A DNA stretch of 64,000 nucleotides, taken from the NCBI GenBank assembly GCA_021555105.2, contig CP134604.1, forward strand, positions 2,728,001-2,792,000, read 5' to 3'. A model generated the notes under the pieces. That model did no database searches and was not told where the DNA came from. It saw only the letters and a program-made list of their open reading frames with translations. This DNA comes from Thalassospiraceae bacterium LMO-JJ14 (lineage in GTDB: Bacteria; Pseudomonadota; Alphaproteobacteria; Rhodospirillales; Casp-alpha2). Of the stretch, positions 1 through 16,076 are shown in pieces. Position 1 is the first letter of the stretch. Each line of letters begins with the position of its first letter. The translations under genes were made by a program, and so were the position numbers.

Positions 1-962
1 GGGTATGCCATCCACGCGACAAGTCCGAGTGCGATCCAGAATATTTCCCTGATCCTGCGCACCGCAGCGCAGGCAAGGCCAAGGCCGGGTACGCCGGTTA
101 TGGCACCGGAAATCAGGACAAAAGCCCCTTCCTGTGCACCGATACCGAGCGGAATGAAAAACACGGCAGCCCGTATCATCTGTGCAAGCGCCTCAATCAT
201 CCAGGCATCCGCCCAACCGATTTCATTCCCGAGGAGCAGAAACGTCACGTATATTTCAACGACGCCCAGTACCCAGTTAATGAAGGCAAGGACGAGCGAC
301 GCCAATAACCGCCCACGATGGCGCGTGTAGAAAGTGACAAATCGATGGTCCAGCTCTTCGATGACCCTGATTGCTCCGGCGGCGCGCTCCGCCCATGCTT
401 GCCCGGAAAACCTCGCCACCAGCCAACTTGATGCCTTGTATCGCTGGATCGCGAACATCAGTAACGTACCTATACTCAGAAAGACCAACCCTGCACTGGC
501 GGTGGCTTGCAGCGGGCCGTCGATCACGTCGGAGAGAGCCATGAAAACGAAGCCGATCATCAGGAATACGATCAGGCCAATCATGTTGACGGTCCGCGCC
601 ATGACGATCGAAGCCGTCGCTTCGGTATAACGCACGCCATACCTGGCCTTGAGGAGCACTGCTTTGACAGGTTCGCCTGCAAAACCGCCGGCGGGAACGG
701 TATTGTTGAACGCCTCGCCTGCCAAGCGGACGATAAAGGTTCGCCTTATCCAGGTCAGACTCACCGGTAGCGATGTCAGGATCAGCAGCCAGGAAACAGA
801 ATCGCCCAGAAACGCCAGAAAATAGATGCCGATGACAATAACGATCCCCACGGCACCGACCTGAAGCACCCGCCCGGCAACATCGTTCAGGTCGATACCG
901 CTGATAATCCAATACAGCAGACCGACACCAATCAAAAGCGAGAGGACTTTCCAGCTACGCAT
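1..962 (-). CDS. hpnL: HpnL-like integral membrane protein (UPF0104/LPG-synthase TM family), partial
   Basis: The reading frame starts at the ATG at 960-962 and runs off the left edge of the window, giving about 320 residues without a stop. The N-terminus (MRSWKVLSLLIGVGLLYWII) is a membrane segment, and further hydrophobic helices follow along the whole length. Around residues 85-100 lies a conserved-looking NNTVPAGGFAGEPVKA segment, and near the end FFIPLGIGAQEGAFVL, both typical of the lysylphosphatidylglycerol-synthase transmembrane / UPF0104 family. The hopanoid-associated member is HpnL, a putative lipid-handling membrane protein of unknown reaction. The start overlaps the 3' end of hpnN by 8 nt, so the two are translationally coupled. 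A longer competing frame at 277-912 is arginine-rich and is only a shadow. The hpnL symbol rests on family plus position; a generic UPF0104 flippase is the alternative. Confidence 0.75.
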   Translation of the reverse strand, partial: MRSWKVLSLLIGVGLLYWIISGIDLNDVAGRVLQVGAVGIVIVIGIYFLAFLGDSVSWLLILTSLPVSLTWIRRTFIVRLAGEAFNNTVPAGGFAGEPVKAVLLKARYGVRYTEATASIVMARTVNMIGLIVFLMIGFVFMALSDVIDGPLQATASAGLVFLSIGTLLMFAIQRYKASSWLVARFSGQAWAERAAGAIRVIEELDHRFVTFYTRHRGRLLASLVLAFINWVLGVVEIYVTFLLLGNEIGWADAWMIEALAQMIRAAVFFIPLGIGAQEGAFVLISGAITGVPGLGLACAAVRRIREIFWIALGLVAWMAY

Positions 963-3621
963 CCACCTGCCCATTATCAATATGGCCTTTATCCGAATGG
1001 CCAGCATCACGAGAACGCATCATCAGCGCCATCAGCGCCGGCAGGAATATCAGAATCGCGACCAGGCTTAGCGATATGGCGATACTGAGCAATAGCCCCA
1101 TGCTGGCTGTCCCCGGATGGCCGGAAAGCATGATCGAGCCGAATGACCCCAGCGTCGTCAGGGCGCTCAGCAGAACAGCACGCGGTGTCGTCGTCGACAT
1201 GGCATCGTGGTGGTCGGTATCGCTCGCGACAATGGCGCGCTGGCGCAACACGATGTGAATGCCGAAATCGACACTCAGGCCGAACAGAAGCGGCAGCACG
1301 ATCACATTGGCAAAATTGAACGGCACACCAGCCACGGCAGAAACCGCCAAGGTCCACAATGCGGCGACACAAACGGGTGCGAAAACCAGAAAGACGTCCC
1401 GGAGACGACGCAAAACAACCCAAAGCACGCAGCCTATGCCCAGCAAGGCAATAACCAGCGCCTTGCCAAAAGCGTCCAGAACGGCGCGACCTGCTTCGAC
1501 GATGATTATCGGTCCGCCTGTGGCTTGCGGCGCAACGCTCTGCACTGCCTCGACGAATTCACGAAGCCTTACCGGGTCGCGCAAATCGGCTTTCGGCCGC
1601 ACATCTAGGCGGGCTCTGCCGTCCTCGCTCAGATACCTGCTTTTCAGTTCCGCCGGAAGCCCTGCGACATCCACTTCCGAAGCTTCGAGCGCCGTCACCA
1701 GATCTTCAAGACGTCCCGGCAGATACCTGAAAAGTGCCTGATTGATACGCGCCGCCTGCTCTGCACGAGTGCCGTTCAATGCGGCAGCCAAACGGGTCGC
1801 TGCCGGGCCAAGAGCGGCATCGCTGGACAAGGCACTCAAGCTTTCGGCAATCTGATTCAACGCCGTATCCAGATTCTGCCCCGACAACGCAATCGCGCCT
1901 GGAGGAGCGAAAAACGCCGGCCCCATGAAGAGTGCCATACGCTCAATGATGGCAAGTTTGGCCGCCTGCGCATCCGGGATCAGTGAAAATATACTGTCGA
2001 CATTATCGACCGCATCCAGCGCCTGCAGTTCGGCGATTATTTTCTCCGCACCTGCCATGTCCGGTGTGAGAATTTCCGATGAGTACGGGTGGATATCACC
2101 ATCACCCATCAGATCGAAGAGTGTCACCACGGATGGTGCATCCGGGTCCTTCAGGTTCATCGGGTCGAAGTCGAAACGGGTGCCGGTGGCAAGCCATGCG
2201 GACACGATTGCACTCACAACACCGATCATGACGATCTTTGCCGCCGATTTCCGGAACCTGCGTTGAGGATGCGGTGTTTCATGCATGGCCTTGAGCACCG
2301 GCGGTGTGCGAACCAGCAGCCGCAACAATGCAGGCAACACTGTCAAATTGCAGATCAGCGCAATGAACATGCCGACACCTGCAATAAGGCCAAGCTCGGC
2401 AAGCCCGACATAATCCGTCGGTAAAAACGAGAAGAATGCGATAGCCGTGGTTAGTGCGCAGATCGCGAGGGACCCGCCGACGCTACGCCCACCCTTGGCA
2501 AGCGCTTCCGACCACTGACCGGACAAACCTGAATACTCAACAGCCCTGAGCACGAAATGAATGCCGAAATCGACACTAAGACCGACAAACAACACAGCAA
2601 ACGCGACGGAAATCAGATTCAACGAACCCAGCGCCAGAATTGCGAAGGCCCCCGTCCACAACAAACCGAAAATCAGGGTCATGAATAGGGCAACCATCAC
2701 CCCCAAAGAACGAATGCCTATCATCAAAACAAGGATAACAATCGTCAGCGAAATCAGACCGGCAAGCCCCATCCCCTCTTCGACGCTTTTCAATTCATCG
2801 CTTTCCAGCGCTGCCGACCCGGTCAGGCGCAGATTATACCCTCCATCCAGCAATTTTTCGTTTTGGGCGATTTCATGAACCGTATCGCTGGCACGAGCCG
2901 CCGGATGCAGGGAGCCATAATCGAGTTTCGGCCGTGTCTGGATCAACCGACGCACCGGACCGGTGGCCGGCATTGCCCCCAAAATCAACTCGGACCAAAC
3001 AAGGTGCGCATCCTCGCCTGCCCGCACGCGTTCGGCGACATCCGCCATCTTGTCTAAAACGGCGGCGGCTTCGGCTGATGTCCCTGTCTTCGTACCCGCA
3101 TCCGCCATCAGTTCAAGCATCCCGGCAAGGCCAAATAAATTCGGCTGCTGCCAGAGTGTCCCGAGAAAAGGCTGTGCCGACGCAAGCTTTAGGGAAAGGT
3201 CTTCAAGCTCTGTTGTCTCTAGATACAGAAAACCGTGCTTGCGCAGGAACGGATCGGCTTCGGCGGCAAAAACATCCTCGAAAATCTCGGCTCTGGCCCG
3301 CATGGCATCGACAAGACGCCGCACACTGTCATCCGCGGCATCGGCGTTCGAAGCTTCAAGTACGACCAGAAGGTTGCTGTCCAGAACCGGGAACGCCTGA
3401 TCGAGGGCAATCGCATTCTGGCGAAATGCGAGATCCGCCGATAACATGTCCTCGTTATCGGTATCGATGCGCAGATTTTCCGCCAGATAGAAAACGGCAG
3501 CAATACTGATCAGAATGGATGTGACAAGCACCAGCACGGCACGCCGCTGGCAAATATCCACCCAGCAGCCGACGCCGTTGGCGAAACGGTCATCTTCCCG
3601 GTTTTCCGCTGTCGGCAGCAC
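955..3621 (-). CDS. hpnN: Hopanoid-associated RND transporter HpnN
   Basis: This is an inner-membrane RND/MMPL transporter. In Rhodopseudomonas, HpnN moves hopanoids from the inner to the outer membrane. The sequence shows the two-fold RND plan: a TM helix at about residues 25-45, a periplasmic domain, a bundle of five TM helices (about 285-440), a second TM and periplasmic domain, and a second TM bundle near the C-terminus. The motif GLSVDFGIHFVLR recurs in the second half as GLSVDFGIHIVLR. At 888 aa it fits the family length. I place the start at the GTG at 3621, because AGGAGG lies 5 nt upstream; the GTG at 3639 is possible but has no comparable ribosome site. It is coupled to the hpnL-like gene downstream and is divergent from the phosphotransferase at 3765. 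Confidence 0.9.
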   Translation of the reverse strand: MLPTAENREDDRFANGVGCWVDICQRRAVLVLVTSILISIAAVFYLAENLRIDTDNEDMLSADLAFRQNAIALDQAFPVLDSNLLVVLEASNADAADDSVRRLVDAMRARAEIFEDVFAAEADPFLRKHGFLYLETTELEDLSLKLASAQPFLGTLWQQPNLFGLAGMLELMADAGTKTGTSAEAAAVLDKMADVAERVRAGEDAHLVWSELILGAMPATGPVRRLIQTRPKLDYGSLHPAARASDTVHEIAQNEKLLDGGYNLRLTGSAALESDELKSVEEGMGLAGLISLTIVILVLMIGIRSLGVMVALFMTLIFGLLWTGAFAILALGSLNLISVAFAVLFVGLSVDFGIHFVLRAVEYSGLSGQWSEALAKGGRSVGGSLAICALTTAIAFFSFLPTDYVGLAELGLIAGVGMFIALICNLTVLPALLRLLVRTPPVLKAMHETPHPQRRFRKSAAKIVMIGVVSAIVSAWLATGTRFDFDPMNLKDPDAPSVVTLFDLMGDGDIHPYSSEILTPDMAGAEKIIAELQALDAVDNVDSIFSLIPDAQAAKLAIIERMALFMGPAFFAPPGAIALSGQNLDTALNQIAESLSALSSDAALGPAATRLAAALNGTRAEQAARINQALFRYLPGRLEDLVTALEASEVDVAGLPAELKSRYLSEDGRARLDVRPKADLRDPVRLREFVEAVQSVAPQATGGPIIIVEAGRAVLDAFGKALVIALLGIGCVLWVVLRRLRDVFLVFAPVCVAALWTLAVSAVAGVPFNFANVIVLPLLFGLSVDFGIHIVLRQRAIVASDTDHHDAMSTTTPRAVLLSALTTLGSFGSIMLSGHPGTASMGLLLSIAISLSLVAILIFLPALMALMMRSRDAGHSDKGHIDNGQVDA

Positions 3622-3764
3622 GCGGCCCTCCTGCTCCACCCGGCACCAGTCACCTTGGAACCATCAACGGCTTATACGAAGCAACATGGCCCGGAACAAC
3701 CGTTCTTGACAGCAGCGCCTCTGCCGCACACCTTCCCGGCACCTGTGAGGAGCGCGATACGGTT

Positions 3765-4376
3765 ATGAAAAAACCCCCATTCGATCAACGGATCGCAGCT
3801 GTTATGGTACGGCCGCTCGTCCATACGTCGATAACGCCCAACCATATCTCGCTGTTTACACTCGTACTGGCGTTGAGCGGGGCTGGAATGCTTGCAACCG
3901 GGGATGCTCATCTTGCCGTCTGGGGGGCCGGGCTGTTCGTCATAGCCCGCTTTTTCGATCATTTTGACGGTGAATTGGCGCGCCAGTCCGGCAAAACGTC
4001 AAAGCTCGGGTATTATCTCGACTACATTGTCGGGTCCGTCAGTTACGCCGCGCTTTTCTTCTGCATGGGCTGGGGTTTCAAAGACAGCGATCTCGGCATT
4101 TGGGCCATTGTGCTCGGGTCCGGTGGCGCTGCCGCCGCAATCATTTCGATGTTTACAAACCTGGGTATCGACCGTGAAACCGGTGGTGATGAAAGCGGGG
4201 CGGCCGTCGGTTATCCCGGTTTCGCCGGTTTTGAGCTGGAAGACGGGATTTACCTTCTGTGGCCGGTTACCTGGCTCGGCTTTCTTTATCCGTTTTTTAT
4301 CGCCGCCGGATTTGGCGCTACGGTTTATTGCCTGTACACCTGCGTCACGCTACTCAGGATGCGCGCGCGTCCTTGA
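3765..4376 (+). CDS. CDP-alcohol phosphotransferase-like protein with altered active-site motif (CAP-1)
   Basis: This 203-aa membrane protein belongs to the CDP-alcohol phosphatidyltransferase family, whose members transfer a phosphoalcohol (or phosphonate) from CMP to a lipid alcohol or the reverse. The signature D-x2-DG-x2-AR-x8-G-x3-D-x3-D is seen as D65, D68-G69, A72-R73, G82 and D86. The last position is G90 instead of the aspartate normally assigned as catalytic base. Hydrophobic segments occupy about 28-63, 91-125 and 165-195. It is divergent from hpnN and convergent with a second family member (4354-4965), the two 3' ends overlapping by 23 bp. Its setting beside PEP mutase suggests phosphonolipid work. 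The missing Asp could mean altered chemistry, a structural partner of the second copy, or loss of activity. Confidence 0.8.
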   Translation: MKKPPFDQRIAAVMVRPLVHTSITPNHISLFTLVLALSGAGMLATGDAHLAVWGAGLFVIARFFDHFDGELARQSGKTSKLGYYLDYIVGSVSYAALFFCMGWGFKDSDLGIWAIVLGSGGAAAAIISMFTNLGIDRETGGDESGAAVGYPGFAGFELEDGIYLLWPVTWLGFLYPFFIAAGFGATVYCLYTCVTLLRMRARP

Positions 4377-4965
4377 GGGCTTTGCGAAACAGGAAAACAA
4401 ACAGGATTGCGAAAGCCGGTGCACCGATGGCGGCGGCCGTTAAAAGCTGATCGGACCAGCCGAGCAGCACGGCAATCGGCACGAACAGCATCGCATCATC
4501 CGGATCAAAGCCGAAAATACCGCCGATCTCGGCAGCGCGTGCACCCTGAAGCCGTTCAATTCGGATAACCAGCATCAGGATTGTTGCCACCGCACCGCCC
4601 GCCAGAATCCCCATCGGAATGGCCCAAAGACCGAAACCGCTTTCGCGCAATCCGATGCCGAGTCCAACAAAGATCAAGGCATTGCAGAACGCATCGGCGA
4701 ACAGATCGTAGGTGTGCCCGCCCGGACTTGTCCGCCCCGTCATGCGCGCCAGATCCCCGTCTGCACGGTCCAGCAACATCGAAAGAATGAACAGTATTGC
4801 ACCGTAGTTCGACCATTCAACTTTGCCATATGCCAAGCAAACGGCAGCGCCGACACCGGCAAGAATACGAACCGTCGTTACCTGGTTCGGCGTTACCGGC
4901 GTCTTTGCCAGCGGACGGACGATGGTTGCCCGTGCGATCTTGTGGATCCATGTGTTATGCGACAT
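4354..4965 (-). CDS. CDP-alcohol phosphotransferase (CAP-2), candidate phosphonolipid synthase
   Basis: This 203-aa membrane protein carries the complete CDP-alcohol phosphotransferase signature: D66, D69-G70, A73-R74, G83, D87 and D91. These residues bind two metal ions and the CDP moiety at the membrane face. Hydrophobic helices follow at about 32-65, 93-130 and 155-195. It starts 8 nt after the stop of phosphonopyruvate decarboxylase and is therefore the last gene of a pepM-ppd-CAP operon read leftwards. In that setting the likely reaction is transfer of a CMP-activated phosphonate (for example CMP-2-aminoethylphosphonate) to diacylglycerol or another lipid alcohol. Family and operon are seen; the precise donor and acceptor are inferred. 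A common phosphatidylglycerophosphate-type synthase is less likely given the neighbours. Confidence 0.85.
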   Translation of the reverse strand: MSHNTWIHKIARATIVRPLAKTPVTPNQVTTVRILAGVGAAVCLAYGKVEWSNYGAILFILSMLLDRADGDLARMTGRTSPGGHTYDLFADAFCNALIFVGLGIGLRESGFGLWAIPMGILAGGAVATILMLVIRIERLQGARAAEIGGIFGFDPDDAMLFVPIAVLLGWSDQLLTAAAIGAPAFAILFVFLFRKALKDARAS

Positions 4966-4973
4966 GCCCTGCC

Positions 4974-6116
4974 CTAATCTTCCGCAAGAAAGTCCTTGAA
5001 GCGTCGTGCAACTTCGGGCGGCTTCACTGTCGGCCGGCCGAGTTTGGGCAACGAGCCGGGGGCGATCTTCATATGGATCAGTGTCGGCCCCGCCCCTTTC
5101 AGGGCAGCCTCAAGGGCCTGTTCCAGTCCTGCCGTGTCGTCGGCACGAACGGAATTTGCATATCCGCATGCTACCGCACAGGCCGCGAAATCGACACCAC
5201 CTGAAACCGTCGGCTGCCCGCCCGTTGAATCGTAGGTGCCGTTATCGAGGAGCAGATGTACCAGGTTCTTTGGCCGGTAAGCTCCGATGGTCGACAGCGT
5301 CCCCATCTTCATCATCAACGCGCCATCGCCATCGACGACGATGATCGGCTTGTCGGTGTTCAATGCCACGCCAAGCCCCATACCGGCAGCACAGCCCATG
5401 GAGCCGACCTGATACAAGTGCTGTTTCCGGTCCTCAATCGTGAATAACTCACGCCCGGACTTGCCTGTTGTTACGATGATTCCGGCATTGTCGGGGGCCA
5501 CTTTCAGCATCGCCTCAAGCGCAGCGTAGCGGCCTGGTAGATCGCCATGATTGCGAAGATCGGCAACACTGCCACCAGCATCTGCAACGGGGTTCACAAC
5601 ATCGCCAAGGTCCTGATCGGCAACATCGCCCTTTTGCATGATGAAAGCCGCCGGCAACTGGCTTTCGTTCATCTGCGCCAGTACATCATCCAGCATAGGC
5701 GCGACGTTGTCGTCATCCGAGGGGAAAAGGCTATAGGGAATGCGCATGACTTCGAACAGGTCCGGCGTAATTTCGCCCATCAATTCATGTTGCGGCTCGT
5801 CGCTCAATCCCGGACCGGCGCGCCACGTGCAGATGACGAGAGTCGGTATGCGGAACGGATAGTTCAGTGATGTCAGTGGATTGACCGCGTTTCCCAGGCC
5901 GGAATTCTGAAACATGACCACGGTTTGACGTCCGCACAACCAGGCACCTGCGGCGATTGCTACCGCTTCGCCTTCACTGGCGGCAGCGACATAGCTGGCG
6001 TCATTGTCATTCAGCACGCCATTGATCAATGGCGTCAGAAATGAACACGGCACGCCGGTAAAGAAATCAAACCCCTTGAACTTGGCGTGACGCAGAAACG
6101 TTTCCGCATCGATCAC
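4974..6116 (-). CDS. ppd: Phosphonopyruvate decarboxylase
   Basis: This 380-aa thiamine-diphosphate enzyme makes phosphonoacetaldehyde and CO2 from phosphonopyruvate, the irreversible step that pulls PEP mutase forward. The N-terminal pyrimidine-binding half contains [16 protein letters not shown] (about 18-33) and the [11 protein letters not shown] segment (47-57) with the ThDP-activating glutamate. The C-terminal half has the ThDP/Mg motif GDG at 263-265 followed by N292 in [16 protein letters not shown]. Length fits Ppd (about 375-400 aa) and is shorter than acetolactate-synthase relatives. It starts with GTG overlapping the pepM stop (GTGA, 4 nt), and the CAP-2 gene follows after 8 nt. 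Sulfopyruvate decarboxylase is the nearest alternative, but the fused PEP mutase immediately upstream decides for phosphonopyruvate. Confidence 0.93.
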
Positions 6117-7771
6117 AGGAATTGTCCGGCATTAATCAGATCGGCATAGTCGTCCACATCCAGCCATTGCCCTACGACATAAACGACGGCGATCTTTTCA
6201 CCCTTCTCGGCGAGTCTCGTCAGAAGCTGAGGCAAACCTGCATTCTTTATGGCTCCGTCTTTTTGCATCTGTTCTATTTCATCGCGGACGCGTGCTGCCC
6301 CATTCTCGCTCAATCGAATCAGACCGGTCCATTCTCCGTGGCGTTGATTTTCCGGAATATTATCCCCGGCGGCCTTCAAATATACCGTCTCCTGATCCAG
6401 GTAAGACGCCGAATATGGACGGCTGCACGAAACGAAATCGCGGACCCAGTCATTGGATTTGGATTGACGTTCATGCCATTGCGCATCAGAGACGACAACT
6501 ATGTCCGCTTCGGTGTCTTCAACAAGGTCAATGAAATACTGGCGGAACAGGATATCGCCATAAGAGACATAGACGGGGCCATGCAGTGCATCCAATGCAC
6601 AAGCCAAGCTTGATACTTCACCGCCCCGTTCGTGCATATCGTTATCAATCGTCTTTATATCGGGAAGATTGACAGCATCTTTTTTGTAACCACGGACGAC
6701 CGTGACATCACGTATGCCACTGTTCCTGTATATATCGACCAGGCGACGCAGAAGAGGTTGCCCGCGAACTTCCAGCATGCACTTCGGTTTGTCTTCGGTC
6801 ATTTCACCAAATGCGGAACCGCGTGAAGCGGCCAGTATGATTGCGTTCACCGAATTGGTTTTTTGCGGCAGATATCGGCGTTCTGCATCCGCCAACTCGC
6901 CATTTCCCATCAAATCGAAGACATCGCTCACCGAAACGACGCCATTCTCGATGCCTGAGAGCGAGCGGTCCCGGTAAATCCTGTTCGAAGTCTCACGCAT
7001 CGCCGTAATCGCGGCCCGCATATTGTGATTGGCCCATATAATCAGCGAAGCGCCTGCTTCTTCAAAAGTTTCAGTCGGCGTTGCATAGTACTTGGTCGGC
7101 ACCAGCACGACCGGGCAACGGTTTTCCCAGCTGGAAATGAAAGACAAAACTTCGTCTGCAGTGGACTTTTTGGAGTGAATCAGTATCGCATCGGCACCTG
7201 CCTCGTGATAGGCCTCCGCACGGCGTAATGCTTCTTCGACGCCCCACCCGGCGATCAATGCCTCAACACGCGCAACGATCTGGAAGTCGTCATCAAGCTG
7301 GCTGTCTTTGCCTGCCTTGATCTTACCACAGAACTCGTCGATATCGGCCAAGGGCTGACCGTCGCCGATAAACGAATTGGTTTTCGGGAAAAGCTTGTCC
7401 TCGATACAGATACCGGCAATGCCGCGCTGTTCGAATTTCTGCACTGCACGACGCAAATTGTTGAAGTTGCCCCATCCCGTATCCCCATCAACAAGGATCG
7501 GCAAGGAACTCGCATCGCTCATGAATTCAAGAACATCCAGAATCTGGGTCCAAGAAGCTTCATTGTTGTCACGAACACCCAATGCAGCAGACATCGATAG
7601 TCCGGATGCCCATATTCCCTTGAATCCTGCTTCCTCGACAATCTTCGCGGAAAGCCCATTGTGAGCTTCCATGATGAATTCAAGCTCAGGTGAACAGAGC
7701 ATGTTCCTGAGTTGAGAGGTTTTTCGAAGTGACCGGTTATTTGCCTTTTGTCGCCGTGCTTGTTCAATCAT
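6113..7771 (-). CDS. pepM: Phosphoenolpyruvate mutase fused to a phosphonate nucleotidyltransferase (PepM-PntC type)
   Basis: This is a two-domain protein of 552 aa. Residues 1 to about 295 are PEP mutase, which isomerises PEP to phosphonopyruvate and forms the C-P bond. The diagnostic EDKxxxxxNS motif is at 124-133 ([10 protein letters not shown]), with the metal-site DGDTGWGN stretch near 95-102. Residues about 306-552 are a nucleotidyltransferase: [13 protein letters not shown], then [19 protein letters not shown], ending in [10 protein letters not shown]. PntC-type enzymes make CMP-activated phosphonates, and fusion to PepM is a known arrangement. I use the ATG at 7771 because GAGGA lies 8-9 nt upstream; a TTG 45 nt further upstream has no ribosome site. 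Ppd is coupled by a 4-nt overlap. The P-loop-like signature is slightly unusual (AASRGSAF rather than AAGxGSRL). Confidence 0.94.
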
Positions 7772-7924
7772 TCGATATTCCTCGAGAAAAAGATGCAGCC
7801 ATGACGTTAGTGACAAGGCTTAACGCCAGCGCTCTGTAATCTCAAGAACATCCGTCGAGAAATCGTGACAGCTTGCCCACCACCAGTTATAGGATGGCCG
7901 AATTAACGAACCGTGGAGGCGAAA

Positions 7925-8680
7925 ATGCTCCGAACTCCCCATTTGACCGACGACGATCTCGCCGCCTTCGAGCGTGACGGCTATCTGGTGAAACGAGGTG
8001 GTTTCAACCCCGAAGACATGGCGCTGATTTCAGCCTGGACGGACGACGTTCTGGCGATGCCCGAAGTTTCGGGCCGGCACTGGGTGTATCATGAGGAAAG
8101 CCGCAAGGATGGTGCCGATCTGGTCAACAGAATCGAAAACATCGCCCCATTTCATGACGGTTTCCATACCATGACCGAGGCACTCAAGGCGCCGGTGTCG
8201 CAACTGCTCGGCGAGCCTGCTACGCTTTTCAAGGAAAAAATTAATTTCAAAATGCCGGGTGGCGGCGGCTTCGCACCGCATCAGGACAGCCAGGCCGGTT
8301 GGGATACTTATGCCGACTTCTTCATTTCCGCACTCGTCAGCATTGACAGAGCGACCCTTGAAAACGGCTGCCTGCAGCTCGTCGCCGGACACCACAAATC
8401 AGGTCTGGTGAAGTCGTGGGAGCCCCTCAACGATGATGAAATGAAGGGCATGTTCTTCGAGCCGGTCCCGACCGAGCCGGGCGATATCGTATTCTTTGAC
8501 TGCTATGCGCCGCATGCCTCCGAAGCCAACATGAGCGACAGCGTACGCCGGATATACTATGCGACCTATAACCGTGCCTCGGCCGGGGATCACATGGCGC
8601 AGTATTACGCCGACAAGCACAAAAACTTTCCGCCCGACATCGACCGCGATCCGGATAAGAAATACGTTTTCCGGGTTTGA
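7925..8680 (+). CDS. PhyH-family Fe(II)/2-oxoglutarate dioxygenase, PhnY/TmpA-like
   Basis: This 251-aa phytanoyl-CoA-dioxygenase-family protein keeps the iron ligands H119-x-D121 (in GGGGFAPHQDSQAGW) and H197 (in FFDCYAPHASEANM), with R208/R209 placed to hold 2-oxoglutarate. The family includes PhnY and TmpA, which hydroxylate C1 of 2-aminoethylphosphonate or its trimethyl derivative. The segments KEKINFKMPGGGGFAPHQD and HWVYHEES resemble that subgroup as I remember it. The start is the ATG at 7925, with GGAGG 5 nt upstream; an in-frame GTG at 7913 lies before that site. It is divergent from pepM, sharing a ~150-bp intergenic region. A role in 1-hydroxylation of a phosphonate headgroup is inference; other PhyH substrates, such as lipids, remain possible. 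Confidence 0.8.
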   Translation: MLRTPHLTDDDLAAFERDGYLVKRGGFNPEDMALISAWTDDVLAMPEVSGRHWVYHEESRKDGADLVNRIENIAPFHDGFHTMTEALKAPVSQLLGEPATLFKEKINFKMPGGGGFAPHQDSQAGWDTYADFFISALVSIDRATLENGCLQLVAGHHKSGLVKSWEPLNDDEMKGMFFEPVPTEPGDIVFFDCYAPHASEANMSDSVRRIYYATYNRASAGDHMAQYYADKHKNFPPDIDRDPDKKYVFRV

Positions 8681-8703
8681 TCGGAGGGTTTAGAAGCGCA
8701 GCC

Positions 8704-9354
8704 TCAAGGCAAGCCGTTTCGTCCATGACGCATAAATGCAGGGCGTTCGCTCAGTAATTCGTAGTAGGCAGTAACCGCGTTCATTTCGGGACGTGAAATA
8801 CCGTCCAGCATAAACCACCTGTTGACCACAAGACCGACTGGAATGTCAGCGAGTGTGAAATCAGCGCCGACAACATACGGCCCACCGCTTTCCAGATGCG
8901 CATTCAGCAACCCTATTTCATGAATAAGGTCCGCACGGCCGCGTTCGACGAACCACGGGTTGTCCCATGGGTGCTCACCCAACTGTCCGCCAAGAAATGC
9001 ACCTCGCAAGGCATGCGTTACATCGTAGGCAACCCAGTCCATCCACTGTTCAATCTTTTGACGTTGAACAAGGCCCGACGGATACAGGATCTCATTACAT
9101 GCCTTGGCGGCCAGATATCGAATGATCGCATTCGATTCCCGCATAACATTGTCGCCATCGATGACCACCGGCACTTGAGCTGCGGGATTGAGCGCCAAAA
9201 ATTCCGGGCTTGTACAGGCCTTGAAACCGCGCCCGTAATCCTGCCGGTCATAAGCGATGCTCAATTCGTCGCAGGCCCAAAGGACCTTCCGGACATTAAA
9301 CGAATTGCTGCGCCCGAGTATCTGCAACACCGGTGTGTCGCTGCTGACTGACAT
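8704..9354 (-). CDS. Glutathione S-transferase family protein
   Basis: This 216-aa soluble protein has the two-domain GST layout. The thioredoxin-like N-terminal domain is at about 8-88, with LGRSNSFNVRKVLWACDEL at the glutathione site, the cis-proline segment AAQVPVVIDGD and the ESNAIIRYLA motif. An all-helical C-terminal domain follows, with GPYVVGADFTLADIPVG. A ribosome site AAAGGA precedes the ATG by 6 nt. It follows the nucleotidyltransferase gene by 32 bp and probably belongs to an hpnA-nucleotidyltransferase-GST transcription unit read leftwards. Its 3' end converges with the dioxygenase. It resembles the GST at 54112 in motif wording but is not a close copy. The substrate cannot be told from the sequence. 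Confidence 0.88.
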   Translation of the reverse strand: MSVSSDTPVLQILGRSNSFNVRKVLWACDELSIAYDRQDYGRGFKACTSPEFLALNPAAQVPVVIDGDNVMRESNAIIRYLAAKACNEILYPSGLVQRQKIEQWMDWVAYDVTHALRGAFLGGQLGEHPWDNPWFVERGRADLIHEIGLLNAHLESGGPYVVGADFTLADIPVGLVVNRWFMLDGISRPEMNAVTAYYELLSERPAFMRHGRNGLP

Positions 9355-9386
9355 GGCGGTTCCTTTCAGGCTCTTGTATGAGCGGA

Positions 9387-10130
9387 TTAAGACGTCAGTT
9401 TCGGTAATATGACTTCCCGGGCGCGTTCAAGATCTTCCGGAAAATCTATTTCAATCCAGTCGAGATCTGAGATATCGACAATCCCAAAAGCACCACGCGG
9501 CCCGCCGACAATAACATCACGGATCGCTTCTTCGTAAGTCGCCATCAACTGGCCACCCTCGATGTAGTTTTCCAGCGACGCCGCCACGAGCGGACCGGTC
9601 TCACGCGAAACCGTCATAAAGCCGGGCCATTCACCCATGGCATCGAACTGGCCGACGATACGCTTGCCGAAGTCGACAACGGTGCCGTTGCGGAGGCAAA
9701 TTCGGACCGGGTCGTCCCCTTCGTCCAGATCATCGTCATAAACAAAAGCGCTCGCCTCGACGCTGTCGATCAGGCGCTTCAGAATTTCGGTGTCGTACAG
9801 CACATCCGCATCCATGAAGAGGACATCCTGCCCACATCGGTAGGCTTCGCGGGCATACCACATGGAAATGATGCTGCCGCCGCGATACATCGGATTTTCG
9901 ATAATCTCCAGAAACCCGTCTGGGGCGCACCGCTCGGCTTCGGCGACGACGAGGTCTTTCCTGTAACCGACGACGAGAGTCAGCTTTTCGATGCCGAAAT
10001 TCTGAAGATATTCGATATGGCGAGCCAGCAAGGTCTGGCCGTCAAACTCGATCAGGCTTTTCGGTGGCTGGGTGCGGCTATCCCCAAAGAGACGGCTGCC
10101 GACACCTGCGGCAAGTATGATGGCATGCAT
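9387..10130 (-). CDS. NTP-transferase-family nucleotidyltransferase
   Basis: This 247-aa Rossmann-like nucleotidyltransferase opens with MHAIILAAGVGSRLFGD, the NTP-binding signature, followed by PPKSLIEFDGQTLLARHIEYL. The metal site is at VLFMDADVLYD, and a late WIEIDFPEDLERA segment matches the family's second metal-ligand region. Such enzymes make CDP- or UDP-activated alcohols, choline or sugars; the closest types by wording are PntC/LicC-like cytidylyltransferases. It is distinct from the nucleotidyltransferase domain fused to PepM. It follows hpnA by 51 bp and precedes the GST. With two CDP-alcohol phosphotransferases nearby, it is a candidate for providing a second CMP-activated headgroup, which is inference. 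Confidence 0.85.
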   Translation of the reverse strand: MHAIILAAGVGSRLFGDSRTQPPKSLIEFDGQTLLARHIEYLQNFGIEKLTLVVGYRKDLVVAEAERCAPDGFLEIIENPMYRGGSIISMWYAREAYRCGQDVLFMDADVLYDTEILKRLIDSVEASAFVYDDDLDEGDDPVRICLRNGTVVDFGKRIVGQFDAMGEWPGFMTVSRETGPLVAASLENYIEGGQLMATYEEAIRDVIVGGPRGAFGIVDISDLDWIEIDFPEDLERAREVILPKLTS

Positions 10131-10181: not shown

Positions 10182-11246
10182 TCAAGAACGCTTGCCGGTA
10201 TCGCCAAGATAGGCGTTCGCCTGAAACCAGTCGACAGCATCCGCCAAAGCCTGTGTCCCGGGACGGTGAGTGTATCCGAGTTCGTACTCTGCCCGTCTGG
10301 AGGAAAAGAACATCTTTTTCTTCGACATTTTGAGCCCATCGACCGTTGCGAACGGCTCGCCCCGACCGGTCACGGCGCACCACATTTCCGCCGCCCAAGC
10401 CATCGGATAGATCGGAGCGCGTGGAATTTGCAAAAATGGCGGTTTGACACCGGCATGCTGGGCAACCGTATTCAGGATTGCGCGTAGCGTCATATCATCG
10501 CCGCCAAGAATATAACGACGCCCCTTTTTACCTTTTTCGAAAGCCAGTAAATGACCTTCGGCAACATCATCGACGTGTGCCACATTCAAACCTGTGTCGA
10601 CGTAAGCCGGCATGCGGCCGGCGGCAGCTTCGACCACAAGCCGCCCCGTCGGTGTCGGTTTGATATCGCGAGGGCCAATGGGGGTCGACGGATTGACGAT
10701 CACGCAATCCAGCCCGGTTTCGGCAATTACCGCTTGCGCAGCTTCTTCCGCACGGAACTTTGATTGCTTGTAGACACCGATCATGTCGCTGAAGCCGACC
10801 GGTGTTTCCTCATCCGCCGGACGTCCTGACGGATCAATACCGAGTACCGCGACACTGGAGGTATATACAGCCCGTTCAACCCCCACTTCATGCGCTTTCG
10901 CGAGGATAGCGCGTGTCCCTTCCACATTGGCGCGGAACATTGACGCCGGATCGCGGGTCCAGAGACGGTAATCCGCAGCGACATGGAATAACCCTGTACA
11001 ACCCGCCAACGCGGGTATCAGGCTTTCAGGCCGCATCAGGTCGCCTTCGCACACCGAAACATCAAGACCGGACAAATTCCGCCGGTCACTGCCCGGCCGG
11101 ACCAGTACCCGTACGTGCGCGCCGCGCGCCAAAAGCACGCGCACGACCGCAGAACCGACAAAGCCTGTCGCGCCGGTAACCAGGTATGGACCATTGTTAA
11201 GCTGCACAGCCTGTTTCCTGTAATTCATCACAGCCGAGTTTTCCAT
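10182..11246 (-). CDS. hpnA: Hopanoid-associated sugar epimerase HpnA
   Basis: This 354-aa protein is an extended short-chain dehydrogenase/epimerase. The dinucleotide-binding GATGFVGSAVVRVLL lies near residues 24-38, and the catalytic Y-x3-K is in GVYKQSKFRAEEAA. NPSTPIGPRDIKPTPTG follows, and the C-terminus is characteristic of the HpnA subfamily. HpnA sits in hopanoid clusters and is thought to act on a sugar or ribose-derived side chain, but its exact reaction is not established. It is divergent from ispH, with 101 bp between, and leads a leftward unit with the nucleotidyltransferase and GST genes. The first ATG has no strong ribosome site, and an in-frame ATG six codons later could also serve. 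Confidence 0.88.
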   Translation of the reverse strand: MENSAVMNYRKQAVQLNNGPYLVTGATGFVGSAVVRVLLARGAHVRVLVRPGSDRRNLSGLDVSVCEGDLMRPESLIPALAGCTGLFHVAADYRLWTRDPASMFRANVEGTRAILAKAHEVGVERAVYTSSVAVLGIDPSGRPADEETPVGFSDMIGVYKQSKFRAEEAAQAVIAETGLDCVIVNPSTPIGPRDIKPTPTGRLVVEAAAGRMPAYVDTGLNVAHVDDVAEGHLLAFEKGKKGRRYILGGDDMTLRAILNTVAQHAGVKPPFLQIPRAPIYPMAWAAEMWCAVTGRGEPFATVDGLKMSKKKMFFSSRRAEYELGYTHRPGTQALADAVDWFQANAYLGDTGKRS

Positions 11247-11347: not shown

Positions 11348-12337
11348 ATGAAAACCCCCGGGATATTTGACGTCATGAGCGAACCCATCGAAATCATCCT
11401 CGCCAACCCACGCGGTTTTTGTGCCGGCGTCGAACGCGCCATTGAAATTGTCGAAAAGGCTCTGATCAAATACGGTCCGCCTATCTATGTGCGGCACGAA
11501 ATCGTACATAACAAGCACGTGGTCGAATCGCTGCGCGCCAAGGGTGCCGTATTCGTGGATGAAATCGATGAAATCCCGGAAGGCGCCGTGACCATTTTCA
11601 GCGCGCACGGTGTAGCGGAAAAGGTCGAGATTGCCGCCCGTTCGCGTGATCTGCCTGTTATCGACGCAACATGCCCGCTGGTTTCCAAGGTCCACAAGGA
11701 AGGTCAAAATCAGGCCGGCAAAGGCCGTCAGGTTATACTTATCGGCCACCGGGGTCATCCGGAAGTGGAAGGCACACAAGGCCGTATTCCGGGTGGCGTG
11801 TTGATTGTCAGCGATCCCCGTGAAGTGGCAGGGCTTGAAGTTCAAGACCCGGAAAAACTGGCATATGTGACACAAACCACGCTCTCCGTCGACGAAACGC
11901 GCGCGACCATTGACGCCCTGAAGAAACGCTTTCCAAGTATTGTCGGCCCGGACGTCAAAGACATCTGCTATGCAACGCAAAACCGACAGCAGGCCGTTCG
12001 TGAACTGTCGCAAACGGTTGATCTGCTGTTGGTCGTTGGTGCAAAAAACAGTTCCAATTCCAACCGTCTGGCGGAACTCGGCGGTGAAAATGGCACGCCG
12101 TCCTATCTGATCGACGATGCATCCATGATCCAGGATTCCTGGTTCGACGGTGTGTCCAAGGTTGGTCTGACGGCCGGTGCATCGGCACCCGAAGAGCTGG
12201 TCCAGGGTGTCGTCAAGCGGATCGGCGCACTACGAGGTGCGACTGTTCGTAATCATGACGGCGTTGAGGAAAATGTCGTTTTCAAATTGCCGCGGGAGCT
12301 TATCGATGCCGAGCCTGCCAGCGCGGTCGGAGACTGA
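11348..12337 (+). CDS. ispH: 4-hydroxy-3-methylbut-2-enyl diphosphate reductase IspH (LytB)
   Basis: This 329-aa iron-sulfur enzyme catalyses the last step of the MEP pathway, forming IPP and DMAPP from HMBPP. The three cluster cysteines are visible as C25 ([12 protein letters not shown]), C109 ([13 protein letters not shown]) and C207 ([12 protein letters not shown]). The catalytic glutamate is in [13 protein letters not shown] (E141), and the TQTTLS segment follows. An in-frame ATG at codon 10 (MSEPIEII) is an alternative start close to the usual IspH N-terminus. hpnH begins 2 nt after its stop, so the two are co-transcribed. This places isoprenoid precursor supply with the radical SAM step of hopanoid extension. 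Confidence 0.95.
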
Positions 12338-12339
12338 AT

Positions 12340-13494
12340 ATGGCGGTTCCCCTGATCCAGCAAGCCCGTGTCGGCGCATATATCATGAAGCAACGCCTGA
12401 AGGGTGTTGAAAAGTACCCGCTTGTCCTGATGCTGGAGCCCTTGTTCCGCTGCAACCTCGCCTGTCCGGGCTGCGGCAAGATCGATTACGAGGACGATAT
12501 CCTCAACAAGCGGCTGAGCTTTGACGAATGCATGGAAGCCGTCGATGACTGCGGCGCGCCTATTGTCTCCATACCGGGTGGTGAGCCGCTTATTCACAAG
12601 GAAATCAAACAGATTGTCGAAGGCATCGTTGCGCGCAAGAAATTCGTATATCTGTGTACCAATGCCCTGCTGCTTGAGAAGCGGCTCGATGACTTCACGC
12701 CGTCACCATACCTGACATTCTCGGTTCATCTGGATGGGCTTGAAACGCATCACGACCACGCGGTTGACCAGAAAGGCACATTCAAGCGTGCTGTATCCGC
12801 AATCAAGGCGGCTAAGGCCCGCGGCTTTCGGGTAAATATCAATTGTACCCTTTTCAACCAAATGACCGCCGAAGAGTGTGCCGAATTCTTTGATTTCTGC
12901 ACCAACGAGCTGCAGGTCGAAGGGATCACCATATCGCCGGGTTATGCTTACGAGCGCGCGCCCGATCAGGAGCACTTCCTGCAACGAGGCAAGACCAAGG
13001 AACTGTTCCGCCAGATCTTTCGCTTAAAGGGTGACAAGAAGTGGCGCTTTAGCCAGTCCAGTCTGTTTATGGATTTCCTTGCCGGCAACCAGCAGTACCA
13101 TTGCCAGCCATGGGGCAACCCGACACGCAACATCTTCGGCTGGCAGAAACCTTGCTACCTGCTTAGCGAGGGATACGTGAAATCCTTCAAGGAATTGATG
13201 GATGACACGCCCTGGGACCAGTACGGCACCGGCAACTACGAAAAATGTGCCAATTGCATGGTGCATTGCGGCTACGAACCAACCGCCGTCGCCGACACGG
13301 TGAAACACCCCTTGAAAGCACTGGGGGTCTTCCTGCGCGGCATCGACACCGAGAAACCTATGGCGCCTGAAATTTCACTCGAAAATCAACGTCCGGCGGA
13401 ATTCGTCTTCGAAAACCTGGTCGAGACCATGTCGCAAAAACTAGAGCGCGAAAAAGCCGAAGCCCGGTCCAAGGACGCGGGTCGCGCCGCTTAA
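12340..13494 (+). CDS. hpnH: Adenosyl-hopene transferase HpnH (radical SAM)
   Basis: This 384-aa radical SAM enzyme joins the 5'-deoxyadenosyl group to diploptene to give adenosylhopene, the first committed step to C35 hopanoids. The cluster motif C-x3-C-x2-C is at C38, C42 and C45 (FRCNLACPGCGKIDY). GGEPLIH and VHLDGLETHHD follow as in the core domain, and a C-terminal cysteine set (YEKCANCMVHCGYEPTA) fits the HpnH extension. It starts 2 nt after ispH. The 3' end overlaps the convergent hpnG by 54 bp. The last ~25 residues are charged (KLEREKAEARSKDAG) and are likely a variable tail. Confidence 0.95.
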   Translation: MAVPLIQQARVGAYIMKQRLKGVEKYPLVLMLEPLFRCNLACPGCGKIDYEDDILNKRLSFDECMEAVDDCGAPIVSIPGGEPLIHKEIKQIVEGIVARKKFVYLCTNALLLEKRLDDFTPSPYLTFSVHLDGLETHHDHAVDQKGTFKRAVSAIKAAKARGFRVNINCTLFNQMTAEECAEFFDFCTNELQVEGITISPGYAYERAPDQEHFLQRGKTKELFRQIFRLKGDKKWRFSQSSLFMDFLAGNQQYHCQPWGNPTRNIFGWQKPCYLLSEGYVKSFKELMDDTPWDQYGTGNYEKCANCMVHCGYEPTAVADTVKHPLKALGVFLRGIDTEKPMAPEISLENQRPAEFVFENLVETMSQKLEREKAEARSKDAGRAA

Positions 13495-14118
13495 GCTCTC
13501 CATTGCTTGCCTGTTATATCTGTTGAGGTCGAGCAACCGTCCTATTGTCCACGGTTGCAGGCAAACCCCGGCGATTACCGGCAACAGACTGATGCTGCCA
13601 TCAGGCCTGACGGAATCCAGGGCATATCCGGGAATATCGTAACCCGCCGGATCGATAATCGCGCGCAGGACGGCAAACGGGATGCCCGCTTCGTCAGCCA
13701 TGGCGGCGACGATATGACTTTCCATATCGAGGGCTGCGATGCCCTCCCTCTTGAACCAAGCCTTGTCTTCACTGCCCGCAACATAATCGACCCCCGCCAC
13801 GATGGATGTTTGTATGTTGAATACGGCTGCCAGGCGTCCACACCAGTCGCTATCCGCTGCAAACGCGTGCCCATCCGAATTCATGACGCGATCAGCGATA
13901 ACCAGATCACCTGGTTGCAGCAACGGAGAAACGCCCCCGGCGCTGCCGAAGCTCAATATCCCGTCCACGCCCAATCCAATCAGTGCAGCAACACCGTCAC
14001 GGGCCCGCGACGGTCGGGCACCGGACAGGCGCACGTAAGGCGCATCCTCCGTGCCCATAACGGGCGCAAGGGCAGCTTCCTCGCTCTTAACGCCGGTAAT
14101 GATGCCGATACGCGGCAC
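13441..14118 (-). CDS. hpnG: Adenosylhopane nucleosidase/phosphorylase HpnG
   Basis: This 225-aa member of the nucleoside phosphorylase fold removes adenine from adenosylhopane to give ribosylhopane-type product. Family segments seen are MPRIGIITGVKSEEAAL at the start, the glycine-rich ILSFGSAGGVSPLLQPGDLVIAD stretch (about 55-77) and ALDMESHIVAAMADEAGIPFAVLRAI, with the Glu that contacts the ribose. It lies 5 nt downstream of shc on the same strand, so it is the last gene of the shc unit, and it converges on hpnH with a 54-bp overlap. HpnH and HpnG act consecutively, so both steps are present here. No hpnO aminotransferase is in the window. Confidence 0.93.
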   Translation of the reverse strand: MPRIGIITGVKSEEAALAPVMGTEDAPYVRLSGARPSRARDGVAALIGLGVDGILSFGSAGGVSPLLQPGDLVIADRVMNSDGHAFAADSDWCGRLAAVFNIQTSIVAGVDYVAGSEDKAWFKREGIAALDMESHIVAAMADEAGIPFAVLRAIIDPAGYDIPGYALDSVRPDGSISLLPVIAGVCLQPWTIGRLLDLNRYNRQAMESLSGATRVLGPGFGFFAL

Positions 14119-14123
14119 CGCCG

Positions 14124-16076
14124 TCAGATGCCGTATTTGGGGGTGCGCTCGTTACCGCGCGACAAGTTCACGTAGCGGGCAAGGGTCCATAACGGGAAAT
14201 AGGCGCTGTAGCCGTGGTAGCGAAGATAGAACACGCGCGGAAACCCGACGGCATTGAAGTACTCCTCGTCCCACTTGCCGCCTTCGCGGGGCGCTTCCAT
14301 CAGATAACTGATGCCTCGCTCGACCGCTTGCGAATTGATCTCACCTGCGGCAATCAGCCCCAATAACGCCCAAGACGTTTGCGAAGGCGTCGAGGTTTTA
14401 ACTTCATCTCGGCGGTGCTGCCAGTAACTGGCGCAATCCTCGCCCCAGCCGCCATCGGCAAATTGCCGGGCCTTGAGCCATTCGACGGCCTTGCGGATAT
14501 AAGGCGCGTCCATATCCTCGCCGACCGCATTCAGCGCACAGAGCACGGACCATGTGCCATAGACGTAATTGTTGCCCCAGCGCCCAAACCACGAACCATC
14601 CGTTTCCTGTTCGCGTTTCAGGTATTCGACGCCGCGACGCACACTTTCGCGTTCCTGCCCATATCCGAGTTGCGCCAGGAATGAAACGCAGCGTGCACTG
14701 ACATCCGCCGTTGGCGGGTCCAGCAGCGCTCCGTGATCGGCAAACGGAATGTGTTGCAGGACGTAGTATTCATTATCGATATCGAAGGCCCCCCAACCAC
14801 CGTTTTTCGATTGCATGCCTTCTATCCAGATTTTGGCGCGTTCTATTGCGGTCTGGTAACGCTCCGCATCGGCACGATGCAGCAACATGCCGACGACGGC
14901 TGTATCGTCGACATCGGGGTAATAATCGTTGTTGTACTGAAACGCCCAGCCACCCGGTTTAAGCCCCGGCCGGTTGACAGCCCAGTCACCCGCAACATCG
15001 AGAATCTGCCGATCTGCGAGCCAGTCCGTGGCCGCGACCAGCGCCTTCTCGCTCATATCCAGACCGGCTTCCATCAGCGCATGGCCGCCAAGAGACGTAT
15101 CCCAGATCGGGGACAGGCAAGGCTGGCAATACCCTTCACCATTCTTGAAGGTCAAAAGCTTGTCGATGGATTCCCTGGCGATCATATAATCCGGATCGTC
15201 ACGGGCGTATCCCAATGCATCAAACGCCATGACGGTATTGGCCATGGCCGGGAAAATCGCTCCAAGACCGTCTTCTCCATTCAGTCTCGGACCGATGAAA
15301 TCAAGGCAGCGTTTTATCGCCTTCTTTTCCAGGCCCGACGGGAACAGCGGCTCGACGATCTTTGCAATACGATCGATACCCAGACACAACGTGCCGATCC
15401 AGTGCCCCGTCGGATTGACCATATACTCGTCTTCGTCATTGGCGGGGCGAATGAACAACTCCTCAATACCGATGCCTCTGGGGTTCTTCGCTTTTGGTTT
15501 AAGGACCGCCAAAATCAGCAAAGGCACCATGACTGTCCGTGACCAGTACGAAATCTTATCGACATGGAACGGTGACCAGCGCGGTATCAGAAGCGCCTCG
15601 GCGCGCATCACCGGAACAGCACGCCACGGCACCTGTTCGAACAGCGCCAGTGCGATACGCGTAAAGACATTGGCTTTGGCTGCACCACCGTGCGCCAGAA
15701 TGGCTTTACGGGCCGCTTTCATATGCGGCGCTTCGGGATCGTCGCCGACCAGCTTCAAGGCGTAATAGGCCTTCACTGAAGCACTGATATTGAAATCCCC
15801 ATCGTGATAGAGCGGCCAACCGCCGTGCTTGTCTTCCTGGATGCGGCGCAGATAAACAGCAAGCTTCTTTTCGATCTCGTCGTTCGGCTCGCCCAGATAG
15901 TGATTGAGCAGGATGTACTCAGCCGGAATCGTCGCATCGGCCTCCAGCTCAAAGGCCCAATACCCCTCGCTTTGCTGCTCTCCCAAGAACCATTCACGCG
16001 ATACGGAGACGACCTTCTCGACATGTTCGAGAGAGTCATTACTGCCTTTCGCTGCCTGAGCGCTGAGTTCAACCAA
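14124..16076 (-). CDS. shc: Squalene-hopene cyclase
   Basis: This 650-aa monotopic membrane enzyme cyclises squalene to hopene and hopanol. The catalytic acid motif DxDD is D388-V-D390-D391 in YYPDVDDTAVVGM. QW-type repeats are visible, including DGSWFGRWGNNYVYGTW, DGGWGEDCASYW and GGWGAFDIDNEYY. Length matches the family (630-660 aa). The start is a TTG at 16076 with AAAGGA 8 nt upstream; no better ATG is present. hpnG follows after 5 nt. The 96-bp gap to hpnE upstream may hold a promoter or simply be read through. Equivalent to hpnF in hopanoid nomenclature. Confidence 0.97.
   Translation of the reverse strand: MVELSAQAAKGSNDSLEHVEKVVSVSREWFLGEQQSEGYWAFELEADATIPAEYILLNHYLGEPNDEIEKKLAVYLRRIQEDKHGGWPLYHDGDFNISASVKAYYALKLVGDDPEAPHMKAARKAILAHGGAAKANVFTRIALALFEQVPWRAVPVMRAEALLIPRWSPFHVDKISYWSRTVMVPLLILAVLKPKAKNPRGIGIEELFIRPANDEDEYMVNPTGHWIGTLCLGIDRIAKIVEPLFPSGLEKKAIKRCLDFIGPRLNGEDGLGAIFPAMANTVMAFDALGYARDDPDYMIARESIDKLLTFKNGEGYCQPCLSPIWDTSLGGHALMEAGLDMSEKALVAATDWLADRQILDVAGDWAVNRPGLKPGGWAFQYNNDYYPDVDDTAVVGMLLHRADAERYQTAIERAKIWIEGMQSKNGGWGAFDIDNEYYVLQHIPFADHGALLDPPTADVSARCVSFLAQLGYGQERESVRRGVEYLKREQETDGSWFGRWGNNYVYGTWSVLCALNAVGEDMDAPYIRKAVEWLKARQFADGGWGEDCASYWQHRRDEVKTSTPSQTSWALLGLIAAGEINSQAVERGISYLMEAPREGGKWDEEYFNAVGFPRVFYLRYHGYSAYFPLWTLARYVNLSRGNERTPKYGI

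Follow-up and report, generated by a model that had tools for sequence, protein, structure and literature searches.

Within the hopanoid gene cluster of Thalassospiraceae bacterium LMO-JJ14 lies a set of phosphonate and phosphotransferase genes whose product could be an undescribed phosphonate-carrying hopanoid, a molecule that, predicted from genes alone, we consider a real possibility. The window that we analyzed spans 64,000 nucleotides (GenBank assembly GCA_021555105.2, contig CP134604.1, positions 2,728,001 to 2,792,000), and the genes in question occupy positions 3765 to 10130, between hpnN and hpnA. They encode a phosphoenolpyruvate (PEP) mutase (PepM), a phosphonopyruvate decarboxylase (Ppd), two cytidine diphosphate (CDP)-alcohol phosphotransferases (CAP1 and CAP2), a PhyH-type oxygenase and a stand-alone nucleotidyltransferase (NTP2), a clustering that the first-pass annotation had described and that open reading frames and profile matches bear out. 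The genes, their motifs and family memberships, the gene order and the co-occurrence are established. Judged by its enzyme families, the cluster very probably encodes a route to cytidine monophosphate-activated 2-aminoethylphosphonate (CMP-AEP), and we propose that it constitutes a lipid pathway of the phosphonyl-tailoring (Pnt) type that is specific to hopanoid producers, a reading that we judge to be evenly poised.

Proposed route to an activated phosphonate

We propose that the pathway begins with the conversion of PEP to phosphonopyruvate by PepM, encoded by pepM (aepX; 6113..7816, minus strand), in which a MobA-like nucleotidyltransferase (PF12804) forms the C-terminal part of a fusion with the mutase. 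The mutase passes the curated TIGR02320 cut-off (389.8 bits against 319.55), is close to the solved structure 1m1b and contains the diagnostic EDKxxxxxNS motif, of which E, D, K, N and S are invariant across 20 homologues; the true start of pepM is likely the ATG near 7771. Ppd, the product of ppd (aepY; 4974..6116, minus strand; TIGR03297, 425 bits, cut-off 312.5), would then decarboxylate phosphonopyruvate. Together, the established PepM and Ppd families yield phosphonoacetaldehyde, which an AEP transaminase (PhnW) would convert to AEP.

No AEP transaminase gene lies at the window locus. A scan of contigs with CAP1 yielded 78 loci, mostly from metagenomes, almost all of which bear the label Rhodospirillales or Alphaproteobacteria; 19 of the 78 contain the transaminase inside the cluster, mostly between CAP2 and ppd, and it is also found in separate phosphonate clusters of families f23 and f11. 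Since the clusters of relatives contain this enzyme, the head group is most likely AEP. The one PhnW of the LMO-JJ14 genome that scores above cut-off (G000:C1:1844251) is 70% identical to the pepM-linked copy of a relative, and its neighbors, phnY, phnA and AEP uptake genes, form a context of AEP catabolism. We infer that this single PhnW serves both AEP synthesis and AEP breakdown, and one cell is predicted both to make and to degrade AEP. The region around it (G000:C1, ~1.836-1.850 Mb; locus L134) holds a complete AEP breakdown set comprising phnW, phnA, a phnY-like dehydrogenase, an AEP-type ABC transporter and a DeoR-family regulator. Hydroxyethylphosphonate was considered as an alternative product, by way of the dehydrogenase encoded at 21142-22524, and is not supported: this protein scores far below the cut-offs of phosphonate-pathway dehydrogenase models, and relatives carry the transaminase instead. 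The gene, which lies to the right of an hpnM-like gene, encodes an iron-containing alcohol dehydrogenase near but below the sulfoacetaldehyde/phosphonate-pathway dehydrogenase models and gives no sign of pathway membership.

Activation of AEP to CMP-AEP could be carried out by NTP2, by the domain fused to PepM, or by both. NTP2 (9387..10130, minus strand; PF12804) is a predicted PntC/LicC-like cytidylyltransferase, and its best match among solved structures is PntC (6pd1, 1.7e-18). It shows the G-x-G-(T/S)-R-x4-8-P-K signature as GVGSR and PPK, the spacing being one residue above the stated range. Tde-PntC has Glu104 and Glu196 near the AEP amine (PMC6697681); the aligned residues of NTP2 are Asp107, which is LicC-like, and Glu200, which is PntC-like. 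In the fused domain (6113-6850), SRG-SAF stands in place of the GxG-S/T-R signature and does not match it, a replacement conserved in relatives, and comparison of this domain with solved structures gave weak general matches only. Characterized PntC clusters likewise combine a domain fused to pepM with a separate gene; as we read that work, AEP activity was demonstrated for enzymes other than the pepM-fused domains (PMC6697681). NTP2, besides the fused domain, likely makes a CMP-phosphonate, and its PntC match together with the analogous PntC clusters makes CMP-AEP a likely intermediate. The first-pass annotation had predicted a CMP-activated C2 phosphonate pathway ending in CDP-alcohol phosphotransferases; families, curated cut-offs and motifs support that prediction, which we refine to AEP.

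The phosphonate may additionally be hydroxylated by PhyH, a putative Fe/2-oxoglutarate-dependent phosphonate alpha-hydroxylase (7913..8680, plus strand; PF05721), making 1-hydroxy-AEP a plausible product variant. Its best and sole clear NCBIfam match is the methylphosphonate hydroxylase model NF052437 (166 bits, well below the cut-off of 500), and the PhnY*-type HxD...H iron ligands, H123-x-D125...H201, are invariant in 17 homologues. Alternatively, PhyH could hydroxylate the hopanoid side chain and so make pentols, which would fit its presence at pepM-less loci; we consider this less likely, given that the only clear family match is to a phosphonate hydroxylase. Between PhyH and NTP2 lies a glutathione S-transferase (GST)-like gene (8704..9354, minus strand; PF02798). 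Absent from the genes listed in the first-pass annotation, it occurs at two of the 78 loci, both of this genus, and we set it aside as probably not part of the pathway.

The final transfer is assigned to CAP2 (4354..4965, minus strand; PF01066, 8.2e-14), which would use CMP-AEP to place the AEP group on an alcohol; the likeliest such alcohol is the polyol side chain of a bacteriohopanepolyol. Its D1xxD2G1xxAR...G2xxxD3xxxD4 motif is complete (DRADGDLAR..GHTYDLFAD), and D4 is kept in 84 of 84 CAP2 homologues with a readable motif, as well as in all 56 sequences of CAP3, a third phosphotransferase whose gene as a rule overlaps hpnN by 4 bases. CAP1 (3765..4376, plus strand; PF01066, 2.1e-12) departs from the motif: D4 is replaced by Gly in 94/94 homologues (79 distinct), while the other metal-binding residues are retained (D-HF-DG-EL-AR-x8-G-YYL-D-YIV-G). 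These homologues are 54-85% identical to the window protein and share an invariant GFELEDG stretch of their own. Judged by their motifs, then, CAP2 is the only one of the two window phosphotransferases that retains the catalytic Asp. In phosphatidylinositol phosphate (PIP) synthase, the D4N substitution nearly abolishes activity and leaves substrate binding intact (PMC4634129). Because the fourth motif Asp is replaced by Gly, we infer that CAP1 is a non-catalytic, or non-canonical, partner or regulator of CAP2. Known CDP-alcohol phosphotransferases are homodimers, and for this reason we predict that CAP1 perhaps forms a heterodimer with CAP2. At L188, L192 and L195, a second paralogue of the CAP1 type, in which D4 is Val, lies next to NTP2.

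Predicted models place six membrane helices and one amphipathic helix in both CAP1 and CAP2 (203 residues in the latter), nearest to AF2299 among solved folds; that of CAP1 adopts the six-helix fold with a pLDDT of 87. The product could be carried to the outer membrane by the HpnL-like protein and HpnN, together with the products of adjoining HpnM/MlaC and MlaA genes.

Association with hopanoid genes

We surveyed a sample of 297 genomes of the order, defining a hopanoid genome by the presence of HpnH or HpnN, and found 181 with and 116 without hopanoid genes. CAP2 (101 genomes), NTP2 (102) and CAP1 (67) were found in hopanoid genomes exclusively, and neither CAP2 nor NTP2 occurred in any of the 116 genomes without hopanoid genes. 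CAP2 and NTP2 occur together in 97 genomes, with 9 mismatches. Fused pepM, scored above cut-off, is present in 75 genomes, of which 73 are hopanoid genomes and 70 belong to the set with both CAP2 and NTP2; neither CAP2 nor NTP2 occurs in the two remaining pepM genomes, which have no hopanoid genes (G060, G088) and whose pepM is of a different form. The confinement of CAP2 and NTP2 to hopanoid producers has an unadjusted p of ~1e-29, a significance that is inflated by the relatedness of the genomes and to that extent tells against our interpretation; when genera are counted instead, the restriction of CAP2 to those with hopanoid genes gives p ~1e-11.

Gene order is conserved as well. Among the 40 nearest relatives, the succession hpnN, CAP1/CAP2, ppd, pepM, PhyH, NTP2, hpnA, ispH, hpnH recurs in several families. 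Thirty of the 78 loci span the interval from hpnN to hpnA, and these contain CAP1 (30), NTP2 (30), CAP2 (28), PhyH (25), ppd (24), pepM (19) and the transaminase (11). In 31 of 31 loci, NTP2 and hpnA are neighbors on one strand. Where both genes lie on one contig, fused pepM is within 25 kb of hpnN in 26/29 relatives and CAP1 in 48/48, counts in which draft contigs favor near pairs.

The survey of pepM beside hopanoid genes that had been suggested from the window was thus positive within the order, and it was positive in a second class too. Outside the order, a single island on plasmid p1318-3 of Roseomonas marmotae comprises MlaA, HpnN, NTP2, aepX, aepY, HpnL, AEP transaminase and CAP2, followed by ispH, hpnH, hpnG, shc and hpnE, D, C, B and A. 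Plasmid pBRH01 of Mycetohabitans rhizoxinica, a betaproteobacterium, encodes CAP2, an oxygenase, HpnL, NTP2, aepX, aepY and transaminase, and then dxs, HpnN, an HpnM-like protein, ispH, hpnH, hpnA and shc on the hopanoid side; Burkholderia and Cupriavidus carry the same operon. CAP1 was not found in the Roseomonas and Mycetohabitans stretches that were read. In the Mycetohabitans operon, a 2-oxoglutarate oxygenase of another family (PF23169, halogenase D-like; L257:15708-16415) stands where Rhodospirillales have PhyH. Among plasmid records with CAP2, 14 of 15 also contain hpnH, a gene present in just 31 of 72,556 records overall.

A chance neighborhood is extremely improbable in light of these data. 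Three complete or near-complete genomes with pepM more than 1 Mb from hpnN (G013, G024, G170) could be cited in its favor, but the same gene order in dozens of loci and many families, its reappearance in a second class, and the way in which the genes are present or absent together across the survey exclude chance as the explanation and uphold the tie between phosphonate and hopanoid genes.

Hopanoid head-group genes proper are also accompanied by phosphotransferases. Seventeen genomes (L232, L234-L249) show the arrangement CAP3-like, HpnL, HpnI, HpnJ, HpnK, CAP2-like, mostly without CAP1 or CAP2 at hpnN, and CAP2-type genes flank hpnIJK also in genomes without pepM. The arrangement points to a CDP-alcohol step in the building of hopanoid head groups. 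In a phylogenetic tree, the clade of CAP2 sequences that flank hpnIJK has those of stand-alone phosphonate clusters as its sister (97/97), and both join CAP2 of the hpnN loci.

Several variant loci were observed. Genomes of 1.3-1.4 Mb (G209, G228) retain pepM, CAP1, CAP2, NTP2, hpnH and hpnN, though scattered. Six hopanoid loci (L137, L145, L148, L149, L152, L154) contain ppd without an adjacent pepM; in genome G002, to which L137 belongs, pepM is on another contig (L085) beside ABC-transporter and nucleotidyltransferase genes. A CAP2-HpnL fusion suggested by a long open frame in f23 proved to be two adjoining genes in different frames.

The acceptor molecule

We would place a hopanoid as acceptor of the AEP group at the midpoint of our scale, neither favored nor disfavored. 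The fuller proposal, in which AEP or 1-hydroxy-AEP is a head group on the bacteriohopanepolyols of Alpha- and Betaproteobacteria, many of them uncultured and some in culture, and is attached by a six-helix phosphotransferase paired with a catalytically dead CAP1, we advance tentatively, at somewhat less than even confidence. Several observations weigh against a hopanoid acceptor. Eighty hopanoid genomes of the order are without CAP2, and 29 genomes, some nearly complete, have CAP2 and NTP2 without pepM. In families f23 and f11, the module NTP2-AEPT-CAP2-HpnL-ppd-pepM lies away from hopanoid genes, as does the module of Burkholderia, where hpnH is far off on the same replicon. The models of CAP1 and CAP2 are without the extra C-terminal helices of the CPT/EPT lipid-acceptor type; a structural study describes the six-helix form as one used for soluble acceptors and the known enzymes with lipid acceptors as having 3-4 additional helices (PMC4634129). 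This objection might be answered if the polyol side chain behaved toward the enzyme like a soluble molecule, or if the CAP1/CAP2 pair were unlike known enzymes. Finally, a hopanoid survey of 54 alphaproteobacterial cultures reports no phosphonate form, with methods that were not aimed at such compounds (PMC12583986).

The known phosphonolipids carry AEP on diacylglycerol or ceramide, and the pathway could make an ordinary phosphonoglycerolipid, with AEP on diacylglycerol, whose genes travel with those of hopanoids since the two share HpnL, HpnN, Mla-type transport or co-regulation. HpnL belongs to the flippase-like LPG_synthase_TM proteins, hpnN has MlaA and MlaC genes beside it, and the full set in f23 and f11 stands apart from hopanoid genes. 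A general glycerolipid, however, would not require the absence of CAP2 and NTP2 from all 116 non-hopanoid genomes, the CAP2-type genes around hpnIJK occur even without pepM, and the six-helix fold suits diacylglycerol no better. We regard this explanation as a serious contender that is on balance improbable. The pepM-less genomes raise another: NTP2, CAP1 and CAP2 might form the core of a phosphate-ester hopanoid head group, such as phosphoethanolamine, for which PepM and Ppd provide an optional swap to phosphonate in some lineages. Since CAP2 and NTP2 persist without pepM, they may in some cases act on something other than a phosphonate; at L141 and L181, CAP1, CAP2 and NTP2 alone lie between hpnN and hpnA, and NTP2 mixes a LicC-like Asp with a PntC-like Glu. 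Against this, some of the 29 genomes are incomplete, imported AEP could serve (PhnW and AEP uptake genes are common), and PntC-like enzymes may strongly discriminate against other substrates, leaving the phosphate-ester core rather doubtful in our view. The stand-alone phosphonate clusters of f23 and f11 led us to reject, as a sole reading, NTP2, CAP and PhyH as purely hopanoid genes without a link to phosphonate.

That the phosphonate instead ends up on a soluble product, on an exopolysaccharide or on a lipid A glycan, with the phosphotransferases making something else, would agree with the soluble acceptors of known six-helix enzymes and with most studied PntC clusters, which tailor glycans (PMC6697681). 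We consider it unlikely: the core is without LicD, glycan polymerase or polysaccharide genes, and its constant partners are HpnL, HpnN, hpnA and the CAPs.

Precedents and flanking genes

Among the closest precedents for the proposed phosphono-hopanoid pathway is the Pnt pathway (Ppm, Ppd, AEP transaminase, PntC; PMC6697681), which shares the enzymes to CMP-AEP and the pairing of a fused pepM-nucleotidyltransferase with a stand-alone PntC-like gene. Here, in contrast, transfer would be by CDP-alcohol phosphotransferases rather than LicD or glycosyltransferases, the genes are embedded among hopanoid genes, and the transaminase is not local. Kennedy-type choline/ethanolamine and Lic pathways resemble the proposal in that a small phospho- or phosphono-amine is first activated with a cytidylyl group and then transferred by a CDP-alcohol phosphotransferase, and differ in using phosphate rather than phosphonate, a ten-helix CPT/EPT rather than a six-helix enzyme, and an acceptor other than the probable hopanoid. 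AF2299, IPCT-DIPP synthase and PIP synthases share fold and signature region with CAP1 and CAP2, CAP1 being without the D4 base, and their acceptors differ or are not known. The cyclitol ether pathway of HpnI, HpnK and HpnJ also adds a head group, to bacteriohopanetetrol, and CAP2-/CAP3-type genes flank its genes in the 17 relatives noted above; its chemistry, however, is glycosylation, deacetylation and ring contraction, and HpnJ is not above cut-off anywhere in the LMO-JJ14 genome.

The first-pass annotation had taken a phosphono-hopanoid to be a new idea. In part the idea is older: a study of 2021 noted a link between shc and PEP mutase in Roseomonas and proposed an undiscovered terpene-phosphonate (PMC8776678). 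The R. marmotae cluster analyzed here is of the same kind as these hybrid clusters. That study is without the enzyme logic, the phosphotransferase, a core definition, CAP1 or a survey beyond Acetobacteraceae (PMC8776678). A search of open-access papers found no further literature on a phosphono- or phosphohopanoid and no report of such a molecule. New, as far as checked, are the enzyme logic and the core set, its restriction to hopanoid producers and its presence in a second class, the link to hpnIJK, and CAP1.

Phosphonates are widespread in the sea; most are thought to reside on cell surfaces, but few of the molecules that bear them have been named. Among the molecular fossils left by bacteria, hopanoids are the most important, and they are interpreted through their head groups. 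Should the proposal hold for many marine Rhodospirillales, one carrier of phosphonate phosphorus would be identified, a class of lipids that common hopanoid workflows overlook would be added, and HpnL, NTP2 and the CAPs in hopanoid clusters would gain a function. Since cultured carriers exist (Roseomonas, Mycetohabitans), the idea is testable now.

Within the locus, pepM and ppd overlap by 4 bases, CAP2 begins 8 bases past ppd, and NTP2 begins 51 bases past hpnA; this spacing makes two minus-strand transcription units, pepM-ppd-CAP2 and hpnA-NTP2-GST, likely. CAP1 and CAP2 are convergent and overlap by 23 bases. On the left, hpnN (955..3639, minus strand), encoding the RND-type hopanoid exporter, scores 890 bits against TIGR03480 (cut-off 752), and CAP1 adjoins it in nearly all relatives. 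The first reading had placed both hpnN and hpnL on this side; hpnN is there, and the hpnL-like gene exists but lies mostly left of the window (L136:11976-13010), at 150 bits against the HpnL cut-off of 195.65 (TIGR03476), which the genes of Roseomonas, Mycetohabitans and f23 pass.

The remaining hopanoid genes lie on the other side, as the first-pass annotation had noted. They begin with hpnA (10182..11246, minus strand; TIGR03466, 490 bits, above cut-off), a hopanoid-associated epimerase/reductase, followed by ispH (11348..12337, plus strand; NCBIfam equivalog, above cut-off) and hpnH (12340..13494, plus strand; TIGR03470, 561 bits, above cut-off), the adenosylhopane synthase of the C35 side chain. 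Next come an hpnG-like phosphorylase gene (13441..14118, minus strand; 297 bits against a model built from relatives' hpnG genes) and the squalene-hopene cyclase gene shc (14124..16076, minus strand; TIGR01507, 786 bits, above cut-off). The segment 16173..21067 (minus strand) contains hpnE, hpnD, hpnB and hpnC, all above their cut-offs, and an hpnM-like gene of the MlaC family (HpnM score 104 bits, below the cut-off of 160). With shc, hpnH and hpnN all above curated cut-offs, the locus qualifies as a hopanoid cluster. MlaA and two MlaC/HpnM genes adjoin the HpnL-like gene and hpnN (L136:9550-13010), placing Mla-type lipid transport beside hopanoid export.

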